A program made the translations under genes and the position numbers. A stretch of DNA of 64,000 nucleotides from Hydrogenimonas sp. (GTDB lineage: Bacteria; Campylobacterota; Campylobacteria; Campylobacterales; Hydrogenimonadaceae). The notes below the pieces were generated by a model that worked only from the letters and a program-made list of their open reading frames with translations, made no database searches and was not told where the DNA came from. Location: contig AP019005.1 in assembly GCA_003945285.1 (NCBI GenBank), positions 1,564,001 through 1,628,000 of the forward strand. The letters are read 5' to 3'. Positions within the stretch are counted from its first letter, which is position 1. Every line of letters starts with the position of its first letter. Below, piece by piece: positions 34,764 to 44,192 of the stretch.

Positions 34764-35447
34764 ATGCAGCTTTGCGTCGCACTAGATCTGCCTTCGTTGA
34801 AAGAGAATCTCAAACTGGCCGAAGAGCTCAAAGAGTTCGATATCTGGCTCAAAGTGGGCTTTAGAAGCTTTATAAGGGACGGCAGAGAGTCACTCGATGC
34901 GCTGAAACAGATCAATCCTTCGTTCAAAATCTTTCTGGACCTCAAACTCTACGACATCCCGAACACGATGGCAGACGCCGCCGAAGAGATAGCGAAGATG
35001 GATGTAGATATGTTCAACATACACGCAAGTGCCGGAAAGAAGGCGATGCAGGAGGTGATGAGACGGCTTGAACCTCTAAAAAAACGCCCCCTCGTCCTGG
35101 CTGTAACGGCCCTGACCTCCTTCGACTACAGAAGTTTCAAAGAGATATACGGCGAAGATATAGAGGAGAAGGCGAAACAGTTCGCGATGCAGAGCTATCA
35201 GGCCGGGCTGGACGGTGTGGTATGCAGTGTCTACGAATCAGATCTCATAAAACACGAAACCGACCCCGAGTTCATCACCCTCACACCGGGCATAAGACCC
35301 TTCGGAGAGTCAGGCGACGACCAGAAGAGAGTCGCCGACCTGAAGACCGCGATAGAGCACAAAGTCGACATCATAGTGGTCGGTCGCCCTATCTACAAGG
35401 CAGAAGATCCGGCGGAGGTCGTAAAAAGAGTACTGGAAAATACCTAG
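34764..35447 (+). CDS. pyrF: Orotidine 5'-phosphate decarboxylase
   Basis: 227 residues. TIM barrel with LCVALDLP at the start, the catalytic DLKLYDIPNTM charge network and a C-terminal phosphate-binding VGRPIYKAEDP. Last step of UMP synthesis. Own promoter probable: TATAAT at 34728-34733. Confidence 0.96.
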   Translation: MQLCVALDLPSLKENLKLAEELKEFDIWLKVGFRSFIRDGRESLDALKQINPSFKIFLDLKLYDIPNTMADAAEEIAKMDVDMFNIHASAGKKAMQEVMRRLEPLKKRPLVLAVTALTSFDYRSFKEIYGEDIEEKAKQFAMQSYQAGLDGVVCSVYESDLIKHETDPEFITLTPGIRPFGESGDDQKRVADLKTAIEHKVDIIVVGRPIYKAEDPAEVVKRVLENT

Positions 35448-35452
35448 AGGGC

Positions 35453-35557
35453 TTACCAGTTGCCATTCGGTACCGCCGTCTCCATTCCCCATATCATCCA
35501 TCCCACAAAAAGCATAAAGAGTATTACGAACACAAGCGGAGCGTACTTTTGAAACAT
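35453..35557 (-). CDS. 34-residue single-span membrane peptide
   Basis: Starts MFQKYAPLVFVILFMLFVGW and ends METAVPNGNW. One transmembrane helix (about 7-25). AGGAG lies 6 nt before this ATG; an overlapping ATG in another frame would have a spacing of only 2. Converges with pyrF. It could be a small subunit of a membrane complex, but no partner is adjacent. Confidence 0.55.
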   Translation of the reverse strand: MFQKYAPLVFVILFMLFVGWMIWGMETAVPNGNW

Positions 35558-35694
35558 CCATGACTCCTGAAAATTGATGGTGCCATTGTATCCAAATATC
35601 TATGAAAAAAGGTGAAGAGATAAGGTGGAACACAACTTGCTTAATCTCCGTTACAGGTTGCCTCGGCGCAGCCGCAATCTTCAAAGGAGGCAGT

Positions 35695-35838
35695 ATGAAA
35701 ATTCTCGACAAAGTGGAGCTTATCGTAAAACTCAAAGAGAAGATAGAAGAGGCGAAAAAGGAGAACGCAAAGGCCGCAGAGCGGCTGCAGGGTCTGCTGG
35801 AAAGCATCATGAAATCGGGAGAGCTCAAAGCTGTATAG
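35695..35838 (+). CDS. 47-residue helical small protein
   Basis: Starts MKILDKVELIVKLKEKIEEA and is predicted entirely helical and charged, resembling a short coiled coil. AAAGGAGG sits 5 nt before the ATG, a strong ribosome-binding site. No family recognised. It lies directly upstream of tRNA-Ser. Confidence 0.6.
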   Translation: MKILDKVELIVKLKEKIEEAKKENAKAAERLQGLLESIMKSGELKAV

Positions 35839-35892
35839 ACCAAATTTAAGCCGTATATTAAGAACCAGCCGCTATAATTTCATCCACTTCAT

Positions 35893-35983
35893 GGACAGGT
35901 GGGTGAGCTGGCTGAAACCACACCCCTGCTAAGGGTGCGTACCTTTACGGGTACCGAGGGTTCGAATCCCTCCCTGTCCGCCA
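35893..35983 (+). tRNA. serX: tRNA-Ser (anticodon GCU)
   Basis: 91 nt including encoded CCA. The acceptor GGACAGG pairs with CCTGTCC; the anticodon loop is CTGCTAA with GCT; there is a long class II variable arm and the T-loop GGTTCGAATCC. Discriminator G is as expected for serine. Immediately downstream begin the IS remnant and the CRISPR island. Confidence 0.95.
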
Positions 35984-36097
35984 TAACCTTCAAAAGCCCC
36001 ATTTTATGGGTATTTACTACTTAAAATAAAATAAATATCAGTCGTTTTCGAGGGTTTTCAGCTGACAGCGTCAGTAGCTTTTTCTTACCAGCTGACG

Positions 36098-36650
36098 TTA
36101 CGCAAGCCTCAACCGCTTCAACTCGGTCATAGCGGCGAGATTGGCTTTGACAAGCACCTTGGTTTTAAGGGCGAAATGGTTAAGGTAGTGCTTGATTTCC
36201 AGGCATTCAAGCTTGAAAACCGCAATCATGGACATGAGCGGAAGTGCTATCTGTGTCGTTGCTCTTTTCGTTGGTGATTTGGCCGATGCAGCATTGTATT
36301 TAAGTGGTTTGTGATACTCCTTGACTCTCCATCTTTTTAGATAGATTTTCGCTACTATATCGCCTGAAAGCGATATATCAGAGTAGACGAGATTGACTCG
36401 GACCTGTTTTCCATCTCTGTTTGTAAACCCAAATCTCTACGTACAGGAAGCACCTCTTTGTTGTAACCTTTGAGATAGCCTTGCAAAGTCTCGTTGTCTT
36501 GCAGCTCCAATGTACCTACTTTTAAATTCTGCCTGCTGTCTATCTTCAAGCTTGGGAATAGAGATACCGTTACTGTGGTAGATCATATATTTCTCTCTAT
36601 CTCCTATTACGAGCGTATTGCACTTTTTTGTGTCATATCGGTTATTTGTT
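36098..36650 (-). pseudogene. Decayed IS4-like transposase, C-terminal half
   Basis: Read on the minus strand it gives YDTKKCNTLVIGDREKYM, then after one in-frame TAG (36438-36436) continues DGKQVRVNLVYSDISLSGD and the YREK-like block LKRWRVKEYHKPLKYNAA-KSPTKR, ending RLRLA. The N-terminal half with the first catalytic residues is missing at the cas9 side. So this is a truncated, stop-containing remnant. Its stop codon lies inside the dispersed motif GACGTTACGCAA (36094-36105). A hairpin CTGAC/GTCAG lies at 36062-36074. The remainder of 35984-36097 shows nothing else. Confidence 0.75.
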
Positions 36651-36677
36651 GATTATATTCAGACTATGTTGTAAACT
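36649..36677 (+). promoter_or_regulatory. Candidate cas9 promoter
   Basis: TTGATT, 17-nt spacer, TAAACT, ending 35 nt before the cas9 ATG. It lies exactly at the broken edge of the transposase remnant. Confidence 0.4.
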
Positions 36678-36712
36678 AAAACTTATAAATTTCAAGACCA
36701 AAAGGCGTGAAG

Positions 36713-39700
36713 ATGGGGAGAAAGATTTTTGCACTCGATTTGGGAATCACATCGTTGGGCTACTCTATACTGGAAGAGGTTGAGCAAAACAGCTACCATT
36801 GTATAGACAACAGTGTCATATTACGTGACAGCCCTTTTGATGATAAGGGGAACTCCAAACAGATGATTCGCCGCGCTCATGTAGGTGCGCGCAATCTAAA
36901 TAAAAAGAGAAAATATCGCATCATCAAAGTTGCAAAAACATTGGAAAATTTCGGAGTGCTTGATTTCGGGGAAGCTATGAAAGTTCAAAAAGAGAATCGA
37001 ATCATAAACAAATGGAAGCTCCGTGCCGAAGATGCTTTTTCACGTCCCTTATCCCACGAAGAACTTTTTGCTCTCTTTTCTCATATGGCAAAACACCGCG
37101 GATATAAGTCGATAGCAACCAAAGACCTGATATATGAGCTGGAAGCTGAGCTTGATCTCACCGGTGAACAGAGCAGTTCCGCAAATTTGGATGATGAAAG
37201 CCGTAAAATCTATGGCGCTTTGAATAAATTGGAAAAACTGAAAAAAAGATATCCGTCTGAAACTATAGCCCAAGTCATTCATAGAGCGGTACAAAGCGGT
37301 GAACTGCACTCCTATCGCAATCACGATGACTATGAAAAAATGATTCGCAGAGAAGATATAGAGCGTGAAATCGAGTCTGTTGTACTGCATCAATATAAAC
37401 TCGGAGCCATCGATATACCGGAAGAGAAGATCTCCGAACTCATCGGCGAACTCAATTCGTGTATCACCAAACAGGAGATGCCTACTATAGACGAGTCGCT
37501 TTTCGGAAAGTGCACCTTTTACAAAGATGAGACAGCGGCTCCCAGATATAGCTATCTCTATGACCTATACCGCCTCTACAAAAAGCTGGCAGACCTTCGT
37601 ATCGACGATTACGAAGTGACTAGGAACGACAGGGAACGGATCATAGAATGGGTGGAAGAGAAGATCTCTTCCGGAAAAAGCATCAAAAAGATCACCTACA
37701 GGGATTTGCGTAAAATTCTAGGTCTCTCTCCGGAGCAAAAGATATTTGGGCAGGATGATGAACAGATCATTAAGGGCAAAAAAGAGCCACGCACCTTCCT
37801 GCCCTTTTTCTTTCTCGCAGATATTAAAAAATTTAAAGATCTCTTCTCCAGTATCCAGCGGCATCCAGACTCCCGGCAGATCTTTCGCCGGATAGCGGAT
37901 ATCCTTCAGCGTTCCAAGACTCCCCGGGAGGCTCTGGATCGACTTCGGATTTTGATGGCGGATGAAGGAATCGAAGCACCAGACCGAGAGCTTCTCGAGC
38001 TCTTCAAAAACAAAAAGGCAGGCACTCAGGAACTCTCTCACCGTTTTATATGTGAAGCACTGCCTCTTTTCCTGGAGGGGTATGACGAAAAAGAGATTCA
38101 GAAGCTTCTCGGCTTCACTGATACCGAGGATTACAGCCGCTACCCCAAATCTCTTCGTCATCTGCATCTTGGCGAAGGCAACCTTTTCGAAAAAGAGGAG
38201 GGTGTCATTAACAACCATGCCGTCAAATCACTTGCTTCCTGGGCACTTGGTATCACCGCCGATCTAAGCTGGCGTTACGGACCATTCGATGAGATCATTC
38301 TGGAGACCACCAGGGACGCTCTTCCCGAAAAGATTCGCAAACAGATCGAAAAGGCAATGGGTGAACGAGAGAAAATACTGGAAAAGATAATAGAGAAGTA
38401 CAAGAAAGAGTTTCCCTTCATCGATAAACGCCTCGCAAGAAAGATCCGGCTATGGGAGCATCAAAAAGGGCTAGATCTCTACTCCGGCGATATGATCAAC
38501 CTCACTCAGCTCCTCGACGGCAGTGCCGATATCGAACACATAGTCCCCAAGAGCCTTGGAGGTCTAAGCGCCGACTACAACACTGTCGTCGCACTCAAAA
38601 ACACCAACGCGGCGAAAGGCAACCGACTCCCCGGTGACTGGCTCGCCGGCAATTCCGACTATCGCAAACGGGTCGAGATGCTCTTTGAAAAAGGTCTTAT
38701 AGACTGGAAAAAGTGCAAAAACCTTCTCGCCGTATCCCTCGATGAAATCTACACTGAAAATATCCACAGTAAAGGCATCCGCGCCACCAGCTATCTCGAA
38801 GCGCTGGTGGCCCGGCTCCTCAAGCGCTACTACCCCTTCCCCGATCCGGAACTGAGAAAGAACGGCTCAGGAGTCAGGATGATTCCCGGCAAGGTCACCA
38901 GCAAAACCAGATCTCTTCTTGGAATCAAATCCAAAAGCCGCGAAACCAGCTTCCACCATGCCGAAGACGCCCTGATTCTATCCACCCTTACCAGAGGCTG
39001 GCAAAACCGCCTTCATCGGATGCTGCGGGAGAATTACGGCAAAAGCGAAGCGGAACTCAAAGAGATTTGGAAAAAATATACTCCCCATATCGATGGACTC
39101 ACGCTGGCTGATTATATCGACGAGGCTTTCAACCGCTTTATGTCCAAAGGGGAAGATAGTCTCTTCTACCGTGATATGTTCGGCGGTATCCGCAGCGTCT
39201 CCTACTGGGTAAACAAAAAGCCGCTCTCAGCCTCTTCCCACAAGGAGAGTGTCTACTCCTCCAGACACGACGTCCCCACCCTTCGCAAAAATATCCTCAA
39301 AGCCTTCGACGAGCTCAATGTCCAAAAAAACCGCCATAAACTTACGGCTGAAGAGTTCATGAAGCTATACGACAAAAAGATTCGTCAGAAGCTTTGGCTC
39401 CACCACATCGGCAACACCAACGACGAGAGCTACCGTGCCGTGGAGTCCCGCGCGGCCCGAATCGCCCAAACCCTCACCCGTTATCAACTCATGGATGCAA
39501 AAGGCGACAAGGAGATCGACGAGGAGTTTAAGCAAACACTCAAAGAACTGGTCGAATCTCCCATCGAGGTCAATGGCAAGCAGCTGAGGAAAATGCGTTT
39601 CTATACAAATGAAAGAGTATTTCAAATTAATCGGGGCGCTGTTGTATCAGACAAAAATATGATAGGTGTTCAAATCACCAAAGGCCGCAAAAAAAAGATC

Positions 39701-40102
39701 ATCATCCGCCGCATGGATGTCAATAACGCTATAGAGCTTCAAAAAGAGAAATCAAGTATGCTCTGCTACCTCAACGAAACGCTTTTTATTTTCAATAAAA
39801 GCGGATTAGTACATTACGGCTGTTTACGAAGTTATCTGGAAAACAAGCAAGGCGCAAAACTCATCGCCTTATTCAATCCCCGTTTTCCGGCCAATCCAAA
39901 AGCACAACCCCTGAAATTTTCTGACAATAATCAAATCAAACAGGTGAGCATCGGCAGCGCTACCGGTGTCATCAAAGCACACCTTGATCTAGACGGCCGT
40001 GTGAAGAGCTTCGAAGTCTTCGGTATGCTTCCCGAAGGTGCCGTGGGGTGGTTCAAAAAGGAGTCTGGCTATGGCAGCCTGGAAGACGATCCGCATCACT
40101 AA
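36713..40102 (+). CDS. cas9: Compact type II-C Cas9 endonuclease
   Basis: 1129 residues from ATG (AAAAGG about 8 nt upstream; a GTG two codons earlier is possible). RuvC-I FALDLGITSLGYS with D9, bridge-helix region HVGARNLNKKRKYRI, RuvC-II EIILETTRD with E531, HNH ADIEHIVPKSLGG with H609, and RuvC-III FHHAEDALIL with H749 and D752 are all intact, so an active nuclease is expected. From memory the sequence strongly resembles the 1132-residue Nitratifractor salsuginis Cas9, with near-identical stretches around HNH and RuvC-III. It cuts DNA guided by crRNA and tracrRNA. The first half looks more A+T-rich than the surrounding chromosome. The stop overlaps cas1 by 32 nt. Confidence 0.97.
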   Translation: MGRKIFALDLGITSLGYSILEEVEQNSYHCIDNSVILRDSPFDDKGNSKQMIRRAHVGARNLNKKRKYRIIKVAKTLENFGVLDFGEAMKVQKENRIINKWKLRAEDAFSRPLSHEELFALFSHMAKHRGYKSIATKDLIYELEAELDLTGEQSSSANLDDESRKIYGALNKLEKLKKRYPSETIAQVIHRAVQSGELHSYRNHDDYEKMIRREDIEREIESVVLHQYKLGAIDIPEEKISELIGELNSCITKQEMPTIDESLFGKCTFYKDETAAPRYSYLYDLYRLYKKLADLRIDDYEVTRNDRERIIEWVEEKISSGKSIKKITYRDLRKILGLSPEQKIFGQDDEQIIKGKKEPRTFLPFFFLADIKKFKDLFSSIQRHPDSRQIFRRIADILQRSKTPREALDRLRILMADEGIEAPDRELLELFKNKKAGTQELSHRFICEALPLFLEGYDEKEIQKLLGFTDTEDYSRYPKSLRHLHLGEGNLFEKEEGVINNHAVKSLASWALGITADLSWRYGPFDEIILETTRDALPEKIRKQIEKAMGEREKILEKIIEKYKKEFPFIDKRLARKIRLWEHQKGLDLYSGDMINLTQLLDGSADIEHIVPKSLGGLSADYNTVVALKNTNAAKGNRLPGDWLAGNSDYRKRVEMLFEKGLIDWKKCKNLLAVSLDEIYTENIHSKGIRATSYLEALVARLLKRYYPFPDPELRKNGSGVRMIPGKVTSKTRSLLGIKSKSRETSFHHAEDALILSTLTRGWQNRLHRMLRENYGKSEAELKEIWKKYTPHIDGLTLADYIDEAFNRFMSKGEDSLFYRDMFGGIRSVSYWVNKKPLSASSHKESVYSSRHDVPTLRKNILKAFDELNVQKNRHKLTAEEFMKLYDKKIRQKLWLHHIGNTNDESYRAVESRAARIAQTLTRYQLMDAKGDKEIDEEFKQTLKELVESPIEVNGKQLRKMRFYTNERVFQINRGAVVSDKNMIGVQITKGRKKKIIIRRMDVNNAIELQKEKSSMLCYLNETLFIFNKSGLVHYGCLRSYLENKQGAKLIALFNPRFPANPKAQPLKFSDNNQIKQVSIGSATGVIKAHLDLDGRVKSFEVFGMLPEGAVGWFKKESGYGSLEDDPHH

Positions 40103-40985
40103 GCCCTGCCGGCTCAGTATAGAGAACGGAAATCTCGTCGTCGAAGATGAGACCATGAGGGTCAAGCTCTCACTCCCCGATACCGACAGTATCATCTTCG
40201 AGGGTGACCGCTTCACCATCAGCGCCAAAGTCCTGGCCGCCCTGAGCAGGCACAAAGTCGCCACTCTATTCTGCGACGAATACTACATGCCCACTGCCAT
40301 TCTCCACCCCTATCACCAGAGCTCTCTGGCCACCAAAACTCTCAAGGCACAGCTCTCGATGCCAGATGAACTCCGCGACCGGATCTGGCAAGAGATAGTC
40401 CGCGTCAAGATTCTCAACCAGTCTTCCGTACTCCGCAACTTCTCCAAGATGTACACCAAACTCGAAACCTATGCCGACCATATCCGCCCCGGCGACCCCT
40501 ACCGTGCCGAGGCCAAAAGCGCGCGACTCTACTGGAAGGAGCTGTTTACGGATCTCAAGAGGGAAGCCGACTCGCTCGATGTGCGCAACCAGGCCCTCAA
40601 CTACGCCTATGCCATTCTGCGCAGCCTCGTCACCCGCGACCTCAGCGCTGCAGGTTTCCTTCCGGCACTAGGTCTCTGTCACGACAATCGCTACAACGCT
40701 TTCAACCTCAGCGACGATCTCATGGAGCCTTTTAGGCCCATTGTCGACGCGGCGCTCTATTTTCTCCTGCAACGTTACGAAGAGGAGCAGCTGAACCCGG
40801 AGTTTAAAAAAGCCATCATCTCCATCTTCGACAGCGAATACGTGGTCTATGAAGCGGGGCTTTCGGCCATTCGTACCGTCTCAACCAGATATATTCATGG
40901 CTTCAAAGCCACGGTAAAAAGCGCAAATATAGAGAGTCTACACTTTCCCACTATCGACTTCAAGGCACTTCGTGAGTGCTTTTAG
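40071..40985 (+). CDS. cas1: Type II-C Cas1 integrase
   Basis: 304 residues. The start is fixed by AAGGAG 7 nt before ATG 40071, inside the end of cas9. Integrase residues are recognisable: a glutamate in SARLYWKELF, histidine and aspartate in GLCHDNRYNAFNLSDDLMEP. Together with Cas2 it inserts new spacers. The overlap with cas9 and cas2 indicates one polycistronic message. Confidence 0.95.
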   Translation: MAAWKTIRITKPCRLSIENGNLVVEDETMRVKLSLPDTDSIIFEGDRFTISAKVLAALSRHKVATLFCDEYYMPTAILHPYHQSSLATKTLKAQLSMPDELRDRIWQEIVRVKILNQSSVLRNFSKMYTKLETYADHIRPGDPYRAEAKSARLYWKELFTDLKREADSLDVRNQALNYAYAILRSLVTRDLSAAGFLPALGLCHDNRYNAFNLSDDLMEPFRPIVDAALYFLLQRYEEEQLNPEFKKAIISIFDSEYVVYEAGLSAIRTVSTRYIHGFKATVKSANIESLHFPTIDFKALRECF

Positions 40986-41304
40986 AATCATGTGGCTTGT
41001 AGTAATGTTCGATCTACCCACCCAAACAAAAAAGGAGCGCAAGCGATATAGGTGGTTTGTCAATTTTCTGGACAAAGAAGCTTATATTCGCCTGCAGTAT
41101 TCCGTATACGCCAAAGTTTTCAACTCGCTTGAATCGGCCAATTACGGTAAGAAAAGGCTCAAAGAGTTTCTCGACATCAATGTCAAGAAAGGCAATGTAC
41201 GAATCATTCTATTCACTGACAGCCAATTTGGGAAAATGGAGATAATCGTCGGAGAATCCACCCCTCAGCAAGAGCAGGCAGAGCGCTCACTCTTCGATTT
41301 TTAA
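40972..41304 (+). CDS. cas2: Cas2 spacer-acquisition subunit
   Basis: 110 residues from GTG 40972 with AAGG 6 nt upstream, overlapping the cas1 end by 14 nt. An ATG at 40990 is an alternative. Ferredoxin-like fold with the conserved aspartate in VVMFDLPT and RWFVNFLDKEAYIRLQYSVY. It forms the structural core of the Cas1-Cas2 complex. No csn2 or cas4 is present, confirming subtype II-C. Confidence 0.95.
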   Translation: MSAFRIMWLVVMFDLPTQTKKERKRYRWFVNFLDKEAYIRLQYSVYAKVFNSLESANYGKKRLKEFLDINVKKGNVRIILFTDSQFGKMEIIVGESTPQQEQAERSLFDF

Positions 41305-41315
41305 TGTTGAGCAGC

Positions 41316-41340
41316 AAAAAAGCCTGTCCGAAAACAGGCT
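41316..41340 (-). terminator. tracrRNA terminator
   Basis: Stem AGCCTGT/ACAGGCT closed by TTTTCGG-type loop bases and followed by six Ts on the minus strand. In the other direction it also follows the cas2 stop by 11 nt. Confidence 0.85.
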
Positions 41341-41409
41341 CTAAAATGGAACTGTCGTAACAGTTCTTGATTTTAAGACCCCTCAAAAAATCCCTGACCT
41401 GTTACAACA
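41316..41409 (-). ncRNA. tracrRNA
   Basis: On the minus strand, the anti-repeat (41408-41370) is complementary to the CRISPR repeat with a small internal bulge (TTTTTT versus the repeat's AAAA region). A perfect 7-bp hairpin GAACTGT/ACAGTTC with a TACG loop follows. The RNA ends in a terminator hairpin AGCCTGT/ACAGGCT and a T6 run at 41340-41316. The promoter at 41444-41416 places the 5' end at about 41409, right at the anti-repeat. The RNA should pair with crRNA and be bound by Cas9. About 94 nt. Confidence 0.92.
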
Positions 41410-41415
41410 AAATCT

Positions 41416-41444
41416 ATTTTACAACAAATCAGATCTGTTTTCAA
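41416..41444 (-). promoter_or_regulatory. tracrRNA promoter
   Basis: Minus strand TTGAAA (41444-41439), exactly 17 nt, TAAAAT (41421-41416). This predicts transcription from about 41409. Confidence 0.8.
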
Positions 41445-41480
41445 GTTTTTGTTTTTATAAAACTGAGAAATTTTTTAGCG

Positions 41481-42242
41481 GTTTTAAGACCCCTCAAAAC
41501 CCTGACCTGTTACAATACATTCTTGCTATAATACCCCTATGCCACGGTTTTAAGACCCCTCAAAACCCTGACCTGTTACAATGGTACAATTGTACGGGTT
41601 GAGCTCCAATTTGTTTTAAGACCCCTCAAAACCCTGACCTGTTACAATAGCTTATTTCGATACGTAAGACGTTCATATGTTTTAAGACCCCTCAAAACCC
41701 TGACCTGTTACAATAGCACATATCGTAAGGTATACTGAGCCCCCGTTTTAAGACCCCTCAAAACCCTGACCTGTTACAATCTGATCTTCGGAAAAGCGGA
41801 AGTGTTCGGTGTTTTAAGACCCCTCAAAACCCTGACCTGTTACAATCTGATCTTCGGAAAAGCGGAAGTGTTCGGTGTTTTAAGACCCCTCAAAACCCTG
41901 ACCTGTTACAATGAAACCGGGACTGGAAGAGCTAGGCTGGTTGTTTTAAGACCCCTCAAAACCCTGACCTGTTACAATGAAGGGTAAAAAGAAAGCTGGG
42001 AAGCCTATGTTTTAAGACCCCTCAAAACCCTGACCTGTTACAATGACTCATTGTTTAACCTTCCCGGCTGCAATGTTTTAAGACCCCTCAAAACCCTGAC
42101 CTGTTACAATTGCCGCCACTGAGAAAACACCGTGAAATATGTTTTAAGACCCCTCAAAACCCTGACCTGTTACAATAGGGCTAAAGGCGGCTAAAAACTT
42201 CCTCTTGTTTTAAGACCCCTCAAAACCCTGACCTGTTACAAT
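41481..42242 (+). CRISPR. Type II-C CRISPR array, 12 repeats and 11 spacers
   Basis: Twelve identical 36-bp repeats (first GTTTTAAGACCCC, last CCTGACCTGTTACAAT) start at 41481, 41547, 41613, 41679, 41745, 41811, 41877, 41943, 42009, 42075, 42141 and 42207. All spacers are 30 nt. Spacers 5 (41781-41810) and 6 (41847-41876) are identical. The repeat 3' end TGTTACAAT is an extended -10 box, so each repeat should drive the following spacer on the plus strand. The tracrRNA anti-repeat orientation independently says the plus strand is the crRNA strand. Confidence 0.98.
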
Positions 42243-42305
42243 TTCATTAATGTCTACGAGTATTTTCAGGCTTCTGTTCCAACCTAAGCCCGTGGCCGCC
42301 GCTTC

Positions 42306-44192
42306 TCAAAGCACCTCTACATCGCATCCGAGTCTCTCTATTTTAGCTCTTAGCTCTTCACTCTCTACGTTTTCTATATAGAGAAGGCTTTCAACGCTTT
42401 TTACAAGCAGCATGAGCGACTCTCTGAAGGAGTCGCTCATATCGAGAAAACGGGTAGCCCCCATTTTCAGGTAGAGAGGTTGTACGGTTTTGAGTAGTTC
42501 GAGCATCTTTTCGTCGGCATCGAAGCCTGAGATTCCTACATCAACCCCGCCTCTTTTGAGTTTTTGAACGAGCCTCTCCACGGTCCGGGTCTCATACTTC
42601 AGTATGTCGTTTTGCGCCAGCTCCGCTACAAGCCCCCTGCCGCAGGAGTCCAGCCTCTTTGCCGACTCAAGAAGGCGGTCCATCTCGTGGGTGGTATCGA
42701 GAAAAGAGAGGGTAATTGGAAGAGCCGCTTTTTTGTTGACGAAAGTCCCATCTTCAACCACCCTCTCCAAGGCGTAATGGAGATACCGCTCAAGCAGCCC
42801 CACCGCTCCGAGCATGGGTGCGTATATTTCGTAAGGGACGGTATCACCGTTTTGAAGGGGGAGGTCAAATGTAACCAGGCAGTCGGGCCTGCCCGCTTTT
42901 TCGCCTCCCATCTCTTTGCATACCGGAATGAGCCGCCTTCGATCAAACGCTTCCGACAGCAGTGAACGCCACAGACTCTTTCTGGTCGGGGTTCTCTTTT
43001 CGTACTCAACCGTCTTCACACAATCCCTGTTTTGGCTCCGGGCATCCTCCAGGGCCAGATCTACGGAGGCCAGAAGCTCTTCGAGACTCTTCTCTTTTCC
43101 GTAGTGCACGACCGCGACACAGACGTAGAGTATCTCTTTTACTTCATCGTAACCGTCAACTATCTCCCTGGCCTCCGCCAAAGCTCTGTCTGCCGCCTCT
43201 TTCGCTTTGTCGGAGGCGACTCCGGGCAGTAGATAGAGGGCTTCAATCCCGCTCAGTCTGACAGCTACGCTCTCTTCCCGGCCGTTTACGGTTTCCGCCC
43301 CTTTGAGGGCGATCTCCCTGAATATTCCGTCTACCACATCGTAGCCCACGATACTGTTCGCACTCTTGGTACCGCAGAGTCTCATTACGACTACGGCACC
43401 GTTGTCTAGATTGTGCCCCCCATTTATATACTCTTCATACTTTATGATGAAGTATCGCCTGTTGAAGAGAGAGGTGAGCCTGTCTCTATACTCCAGCTCC
43501 GCGTTTTTTCGTGTGAGCTGAAGGAGACGGTCGTGCATCTGCTCCATACTTCCGACCAGTCTGTTCATCACTTCCGTTACACTATCTATCTCCGCGATGG
43601 AAGATCTCTCTTCATTGACGCTGAAACGGTTCCGCAAAACTCCTTCCGCCTGTATACGCAGCTTTTTGATCGGCTCAAGAAGAGAGCGTACCAGCAGGGC
43701 TATGAGCGCTATTCCGGCTATACCCAGCACCAAAAAGAGTCCGATCAGCTTCAAAAAGAGGCTGTAGAGATACTCTTCGGCCAAAGAGGTGTCGGAGGTG
43801 ACCTCAAGTATACCGAGAGGTTTCCAGCCGGCAGAGACCTGGGCGGCGGCTTTCGGAGCTTTCAGGGCCGCGACGGTGAGGAACCACTTCGGAACCGCGC
43901 TGCTGCGCTCCTTCGTTTTCACGAAGAGAGATCTGCCTCTCATATCTTTCAACTCTATCTTCCTGAAATATCCCGTATCGAACACCGCATCGGCTATGGT
44001 GGAGAGCTTTACCACATCTCCCCCGCTTTGGGACATGGAGACGGCCAGGGTTGCCGATCCGTTTACTGCTTTTGCGTAGAGCTCATCCTGCACATACTCT
44101 TTCGACTCTGAAAAGTTTATAGCAAGCACCAGCGCAAGGATTGTAAGAAAAAAGAGTGAAAACATCAGTGTCATCTTTTTGAAAAGTGTCAT
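42306..44192 (-). CDS. lapD: LapD-like c-di-GMP receptor with degenerate GGDEF and EAL domains
   Basis: 628 residues from ATG with AGGAG upstream. TM1 (about 8-26), the LapD/MoxY periplasmic domain (about 27-150), TM2 (about 150-172), HAMP, a GGDEF-like domain whose active motif is replaced (RLSGIEALYLLP), and an EAL-like domain without the EAL signature. Such proteins bind c-di-GMP inside and sequester the periplasmic protease LapG outside. It overlaps the LapG gene upstream by 4 nt. It ends 63 nt from the CRISPR array and is convergent with it. Confidence 0.85.
   Translation of the reverse strand: MTLFKKMTLMFSLFFLTILALVLAINFSESKEYVQDELYAKAVNGSATLAVSMSQSGGDVVKLSTIADAVFDTGYFRKIELKDMRGRSLFVKTKERSSAVPKWFLTVAALKAPKAAAQVSAGWKPLGILEVTSDTSLAEEYLYSLFLKLIGLFLVLGIAGIALIALLVRSLLEPIKKLRIQAEGVLRNRFSVNEERSSIAEIDSVTEVMNRLVGSMEQMHDRLLQLTRKNAELEYRDRLTSLFNRRYFIIKYEEYINGGHNLDNGAVVVMRLCGTKSANSIVGYDVVDGIFREIALKGAETVNGREESVAVRLSGIEALYLLPGVASDKAKEAADRALAEAREIVDGYDEVKEILYVCVAVVHYGKEKSLEELLASVDLALEDARSQNRDCVKTVEYEKRTPTRKSLWRSLLSEAFDRRRLIPVCKEMGGEKAGRPDCLVTFDLPLQNGDTVPYEIYAPMLGAVGLLERYLHYALERVVEDGTFVNKKAALPITLSFLDTTHEMDRLLESAKRLDSCGRGLVAELAQNDILKYETRTVERLVQKLKRGGVDVGISGFDADEKMLELLKTVQPLYLKMGATRFLDMSDSFRESLMLLVKSVESLLYIENVESEELRAKIERLGCDVEVL

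Follow-up and report, generated by a model that had tools for sequence, protein, structure and literature searches.

A predicted tracrRNA gene and a CRISPR array of probable reversed polarity at a type II-C-like locus of Hydrogenimonas sp.

Genes and features of the locus

The window analyzed here, a 64,000-nt stretch of the Hydrogenimonas sp. genome (contig AP019005.1), contains a complete type II-C-like CRISPR-Cas9 system. The cas9 gene (36707–40102, plus strand) encodes a product of 1131 amino acids which matches TIGR01865 (E value 9.6e-108) and includes the RuvC/HNH motifs DLGITS, DIEHIVPKS, and HHAEDA. It is followed on the same strand by a cas1 gene of the type II family (cas1_NMENI; 40038–40985; E value 2.8e-77) and by cas2 (40972–41304; E value 1.3e-17). 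These three are the only cas genes, neither csn2 nor cas4 being present at the locus, and C. jejuni type II-C (PMC4607530, PMC8224270) likewise has cas9, cas1 and cas2 only. The best PDB matches of the Cas9 are mostly compact enzymes of about 1050–1150 amino acids, a feature which, together with the lack of csn2 among the adjacent genes and the promoter-like ends of the repeats described below, distinguishes the system from type II-A. The neighbours of the locus are pyrF, a tRNA, a LapD-like GGDEF/EAL protein, a C93 peptidase, and a sirtuin. The CRISPR locus comes directly after tRNA-Ser, a common insertion point for islands. Between tRNA-Ser(GCT) and cas9, the minus strand at 36080–36640 lacks an intact ORF and may represent a decayed gene, perhaps a transposase.

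Positioned 12 nt after cas2 is the proposed tracrRNA gene, an element of about 93 nt on the minus strand (41316–41408) identified from its sequence elements, its fold, its relatives, and covariation. The array lies beyond it (41481–42242) and consists of 12 identical 36-nt repeats with a period of 66 nt, the crRNA sense being that of the plus, or cas, strand. The leader end (41451–41480, plus strand) carries a conserved A/T-rich motif shared with relatives, here GAGAAATTTTTTAGCG, immediately before the first repeat. An extended -10 element, TGTTACAAT, closes each repeat and is a putative promoter of the repeat-borne II-C kind (gnTAnaaT); the C. jejuni repeats also carry their own promoter of this form. 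Two adjacent spacers (41781–41810 and 41847–41876) are identical (CTGATCTTCGGAAAAGCGGAAGTGTTCGGT), reflecting duplication of a repeat-spacer unit. Searches for spacer targets returned no phage match and no convincing self-target, the best self-match being 16 bp, and therefore no PAM can be inferred.

The tracrRNA gene and its conservation

A minus-strand tracrRNA gene between cas2 and the array was proposed in a first-pass annotation of the sequence, and its individual parts were all recovered at their expected positions. The promoter, TTGAAA-17-TAAAAT, is present at 41444–41416 on the minus strand and has 10 of 12 consensus matches; it is the sole such site within 41250–41600, where 0.6 would be expected by chance, so that it is weak evidence by itself. 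The degenerate repeat at 41370–41408, read on the minus strand, is confirmed as the anti-repeat, being complementary to the whole 36-nt repeat except for a 3-nt bulge. Folding of the two strands, which had been suggested as a check, gave a duplex of -57.4 kcal/mol that spans all 36 repeat positions with that single bulge. Downstream are the nexus hairpin GAACTGT-TACG-ACAGTTC (41349–41366, seven pairs) and an intrinsic terminator (41316–41342) with a ten-pair stem, 41342–41319, and a U6 tract ending at 41316. The fold of the tracrRNA has a z-score of -4.66. No Rfam tracrRNA model matched within 35400–42500 at E values up to 1. The earlier prediction of a single RNA of about 94 nt holds at 93–94 nt, although transcription most likely begins at G41408 or one base earlier, where a position near 41409 had been given.

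The results from comparative analysis extend these observations. Relatives of the Cas9 were sought in the order and four families, and share 34–77% identity with it. In every relative with an array and assembled flanks, the minus strand carries an anti-repeat in the interval from cas2 to the array, and a TTGxxx-17-TATAAT-like promoter is found just upstream of it. Thirteen related loci have promoter, anti-repeat, nexus, and terminator in the same place and on the same strand. When 11 of these RNAs were aligned, 90.6% of the cells in the two hairpins were paired and 31 cells were compensatory; none of 500 shuffles attained this number, and the slid controls all fell far below it. For the nexus alone, 95% of cells are paired, with both-sided changes in three pairs; in the terminator, both-sided changes affect eight of the ten pairs. 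A pattern search for further members of the clade in 397 genomes of the class recovered only the known loci and chance matches.

At the level of the genome, the 18-nt core of the repeat has 13 exact copies in 2.19 Mb, i.e., the 12 array repeats and the anti-repeat, and matches with three mismatches are few, about as many as for a reversed-pattern control. This genome-wide search revealed no second tracrRNA, nor an anti-repeat upstream of cas9, the alternative that had been named as contrary to the assignment. It might be argued that 41370–41408 is merely a decayed CRISPR repeat at the end of the array, with no transcribed anti-repeat, given that it shares the orientation of the array repeats and lies 110 nt upstream of the first of them. 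We consider this very improbable: the segment is at the young end of the array (see below), where decayed repeats are unexpected, discounting it would leave the genome without any anti-repeat, and the recurrence of promoter, nexus and terminator in relatives, with covarying stems, contradicts decay. The comparative data point instead to a structured RNA under selection, whose anti-repeat tracks the changing repeat; the element is almost certainly the Cas9 tracrRNA of this II-C-like locus. In the proposed scheme, an RNA of approximately 93 nt would be transcribed from the minus strand, from 41408 to 41316, its 5' 39 nt would pair with the repeat of each crRNA, and the nexus and terminator hairpins would, by homology, seat the dual RNA in Cas9.

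The presence of a tracrRNA at such a locus is expected and is not new in itself. Its position, which had been described as hidden, is not unusual either, since C. jejuni-type systems also have the tracrRNA beside the array (PMC4607530); in C. jejuni, too, it occupies the interval from cas2 to the array and is encoded opposite to cas, with a sigma-70 -10 element upstream and with a nexus and a second hairpin. The first-pass annotation overlooked two points: the array has the reverse of the normal II-C orientation, and the free RNA is predicted to close up on itself.

Two minor features of the plus strand were also noted. In the segment 41348–41375 the nexus palindrome precedes TTGATTTT; this combination is scored as a weak terminator and could reduce read-through from the cas genes into the tracrRNA and array. 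The plus-strand copy of the repeat -10 within the anti-repeat (41400–41408) reads TACAAC in place of TACAAT, the final T being replaced by C in 13 of 16 loci. We do not claim this as a mutation that silences a promoter antisense to the tracrRNA, since this position could instead serve as the preferred initiating G of the tracrRNA.

Orientation and growing end of the array

The crRNA sense of each array was assigned by asking on which side of the anti-repeat the nexus lies, so that a crRNA reads spacer, then GTTTTAAG. By this means the array of the window runs in the cas direction, and not antisense to and convergent with cas as is typical of II-C. The same sense was found in all 14 loci of the clade (the window, L018, L043–L050, L052, L053, L055, and L059), including two, L018 and L047, in which a single repeat is visible before the contig ends. 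The opposite orientation, which is the published one for II-C (PMC4607530, PMC3936727), is present in each of the 12 other loci examined (L056, L058, L075–L078, and L080–L085), the last ten being more distant members of the same order. The leader appears on the cas side in both groups, and thus it is the array which has been turned relative to the leader. Transcription of the array would then proceed divergently from the tracrRNA, in the direction of cas, whereas C. jejuni has its array antisense to cas, with the tracrRNA downstream of the array. With its array in the cas direction, a leader that precedes the first repeat when read in crRNA sense, and probable acquisition at that end, the locus resembles type II-A.

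In published II-C systems, new spacers are acquired at the crRNA 3' end (PMC12638026, PMC12080349, PMC8092290), and the array of the window might accordingly have normal II-C polarity and grow at its distal end. Three features of the clade are contrary to distal growth, and make this reading improbable despite the published data that favour it (PMC12638026, PMC12080349). The last, distal repeats are degenerate in five arrays (L044, L045, L050, L052, and L055), while the first repeats never are, with the exception of a variant common to repeats 1–4 of L055. The clade leader motif (TTAGAAATTTTTTAATG or similar) is conserved next to cas, and the trailers at the distal end have nothing in common. 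Finally, the variant in L055 is a new A-to-G change which repeats 1–4 have in common and which is absent from the repeats that follow, the pattern that would arise if each new repeat were a copy of the first; the first repeat is thus taken as the growing end. As judged from the degenerate distal repeats, the leader, and L055, the II-C trait of spacer addition at the crRNA 3' end probably does not apply to this clade. We propose that the array probably has a flipped polarity, running in the cas direction and growing at the first repeat, beside the tracrRNA, and consider this to be well supported at the level of sequence. A reversed II-C array with growth at the first repeat is a variant that we did not find described in the literature. 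A study of the suppression of extraneous crRNAs in II-C (PMC12080349) deals with this stretch upstream of the first repeat as well, but takes that repeat as the oldest and free to mutate, whereas here it is intact and probably the one at which the array grows.

There is no agreement among orientation tools on II-C arrays; subgroups that differ in their acquisition end were proposed in a 2025 study, which named none of them (PMC12638026). The present clade is a concrete candidate for that open question, and comes with a Cas9 tree and loci on which it can be tested.

Among the other II-C loci of the order, six (L075–L078, L083, and L085) carry the anti-repeat immediately ahead of cas9 and have canonically oriented arrays, and a G-rich or C-rich inverted repeat often adjoins the array.

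Predicted self-pairing of the free tracrRNA

The free tracrRNA is not predicted to fold as nexus plus terminator. Both folding and the alignment suggest that its 5' end, GUUGUAACAG (41399–41408, minus strand), pairs with CUGUUACGAC (41354–41363, minus strand), which comprises the 5' arm and loop of the nexus. This part of the nexus nearly duplicates the repeat 3' end, CUGUUACAAU, and the nexus would thus compete in cis with the crRNA. Before crRNA binding, the first ten bases of the tracrRNA would be paired with the nexus arm, blocking the nexus hairpin; the crRNA repeat would then displace this lock and release the nexus. Consistent with such an exchange, a co-fold of tracrRNA with the repeat (-77.9) restored the nexus hairpin. 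For the tracrRNA of the window, opening the lock is predicted to cost 7.6 kcal/mol at 37 °C and 5.4 kcal/mol at 55 °C; among the nine lock-bearing members the cost is 3–12 kcal/mol, although in L044 it falls to 0 at 55 °C.

The pairing is predicted in nine of 11 clade members, with a probability of at least 0.8 in eight and of 0.35 in L018, and in none of five outgroups; L045 and L047 are the clade members without it. On the Cas9 tree, three changes suffice for this distribution, which fits one gain and two losses. In the lock alignment 91.6% of cells are paired, with one G-C to A-U double change, and the covariation score is barely above that of shuffled alignments, 19 of 500 being as high.

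Is the pairing then functional? The tracrRNA could be real and the resemblance between its 5' end and nexus be due to chance or inheritance, with the nexus kept because Cas9 reads it and the 5' end removed by RNase III trimming. We regard this account as reasonably probable. A trimmed tracrRNA cannot form the lock, L047 and the five outgroups manage without one, L045 retains the nexus sequence even though its 5' end has drifted, as recognition by Cas9 could explain, and the record of the lock amounts to a single compensatory event and two losses. This account is less easily reconciled with three other observations. The repeat-like bases of the nexus persist where its loop has grown (L046 and L048) or the register has moved (L049). 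TTAC has changed to TTAT jointly in repeat, anti-repeat, and nexus in L018, L048, L049, L050, and L059, the lock being preserved by the G-C to A-U change, and non-cognate pairs of this kind are 4 kcal/mol weaker. Shuffled arms, moreover, rarely pair as well as the lock arms (P at most 0.003 in nine members). That the lock is functional seems to us possible but doubtful.

If it does operate, the lock could plausibly serve two ends: the nexus would stay closed until the arrival of a full repeat, and cellular RNAs would be prevented from reaching the anti-repeat. Such RNAs are taken up by C. jejuni Cas9 as noncanonical crRNAs (PMC8224270), and the switch would shield the anti-repeat from RNAs of that kind while keeping the nexus, and hence Cas9 loading, shut until the genuine crRNA is present. 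Taken as a whole, we tentatively speculate, though we think it rather unlikely that every part will hold, that a Campylobacterota II-C lineage reversed its array relative to leader and tracrRNA, and that its tracrRNA is a conformational switch, in which the nexus mimics the crRNA repeat and holds on to the anti-repeat until displaced by a true full-length repeat. A real lock would amount to a built-in check on guide assembly, transferable to engineered tracrRNAs to lower loading with wrong guides. The tracrRNA also supplies a ready dual RNA for an untested Cas9 family. We found no self-locking tracrRNA in the open-licence literature searched, and none is described for C. jejuni.

The repeat:anti-repeat duplex of C. 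jejuni is also perfect, in contrast to the conserved bulge in the tracrRNA strand of the present clade. This small bulge, at about 41385–41391 in the window, follows roughly 15–20 paired bases and is kept in nearly all members despite sequence divergence. It is likely to be a landmark for RNase III or Cas9.
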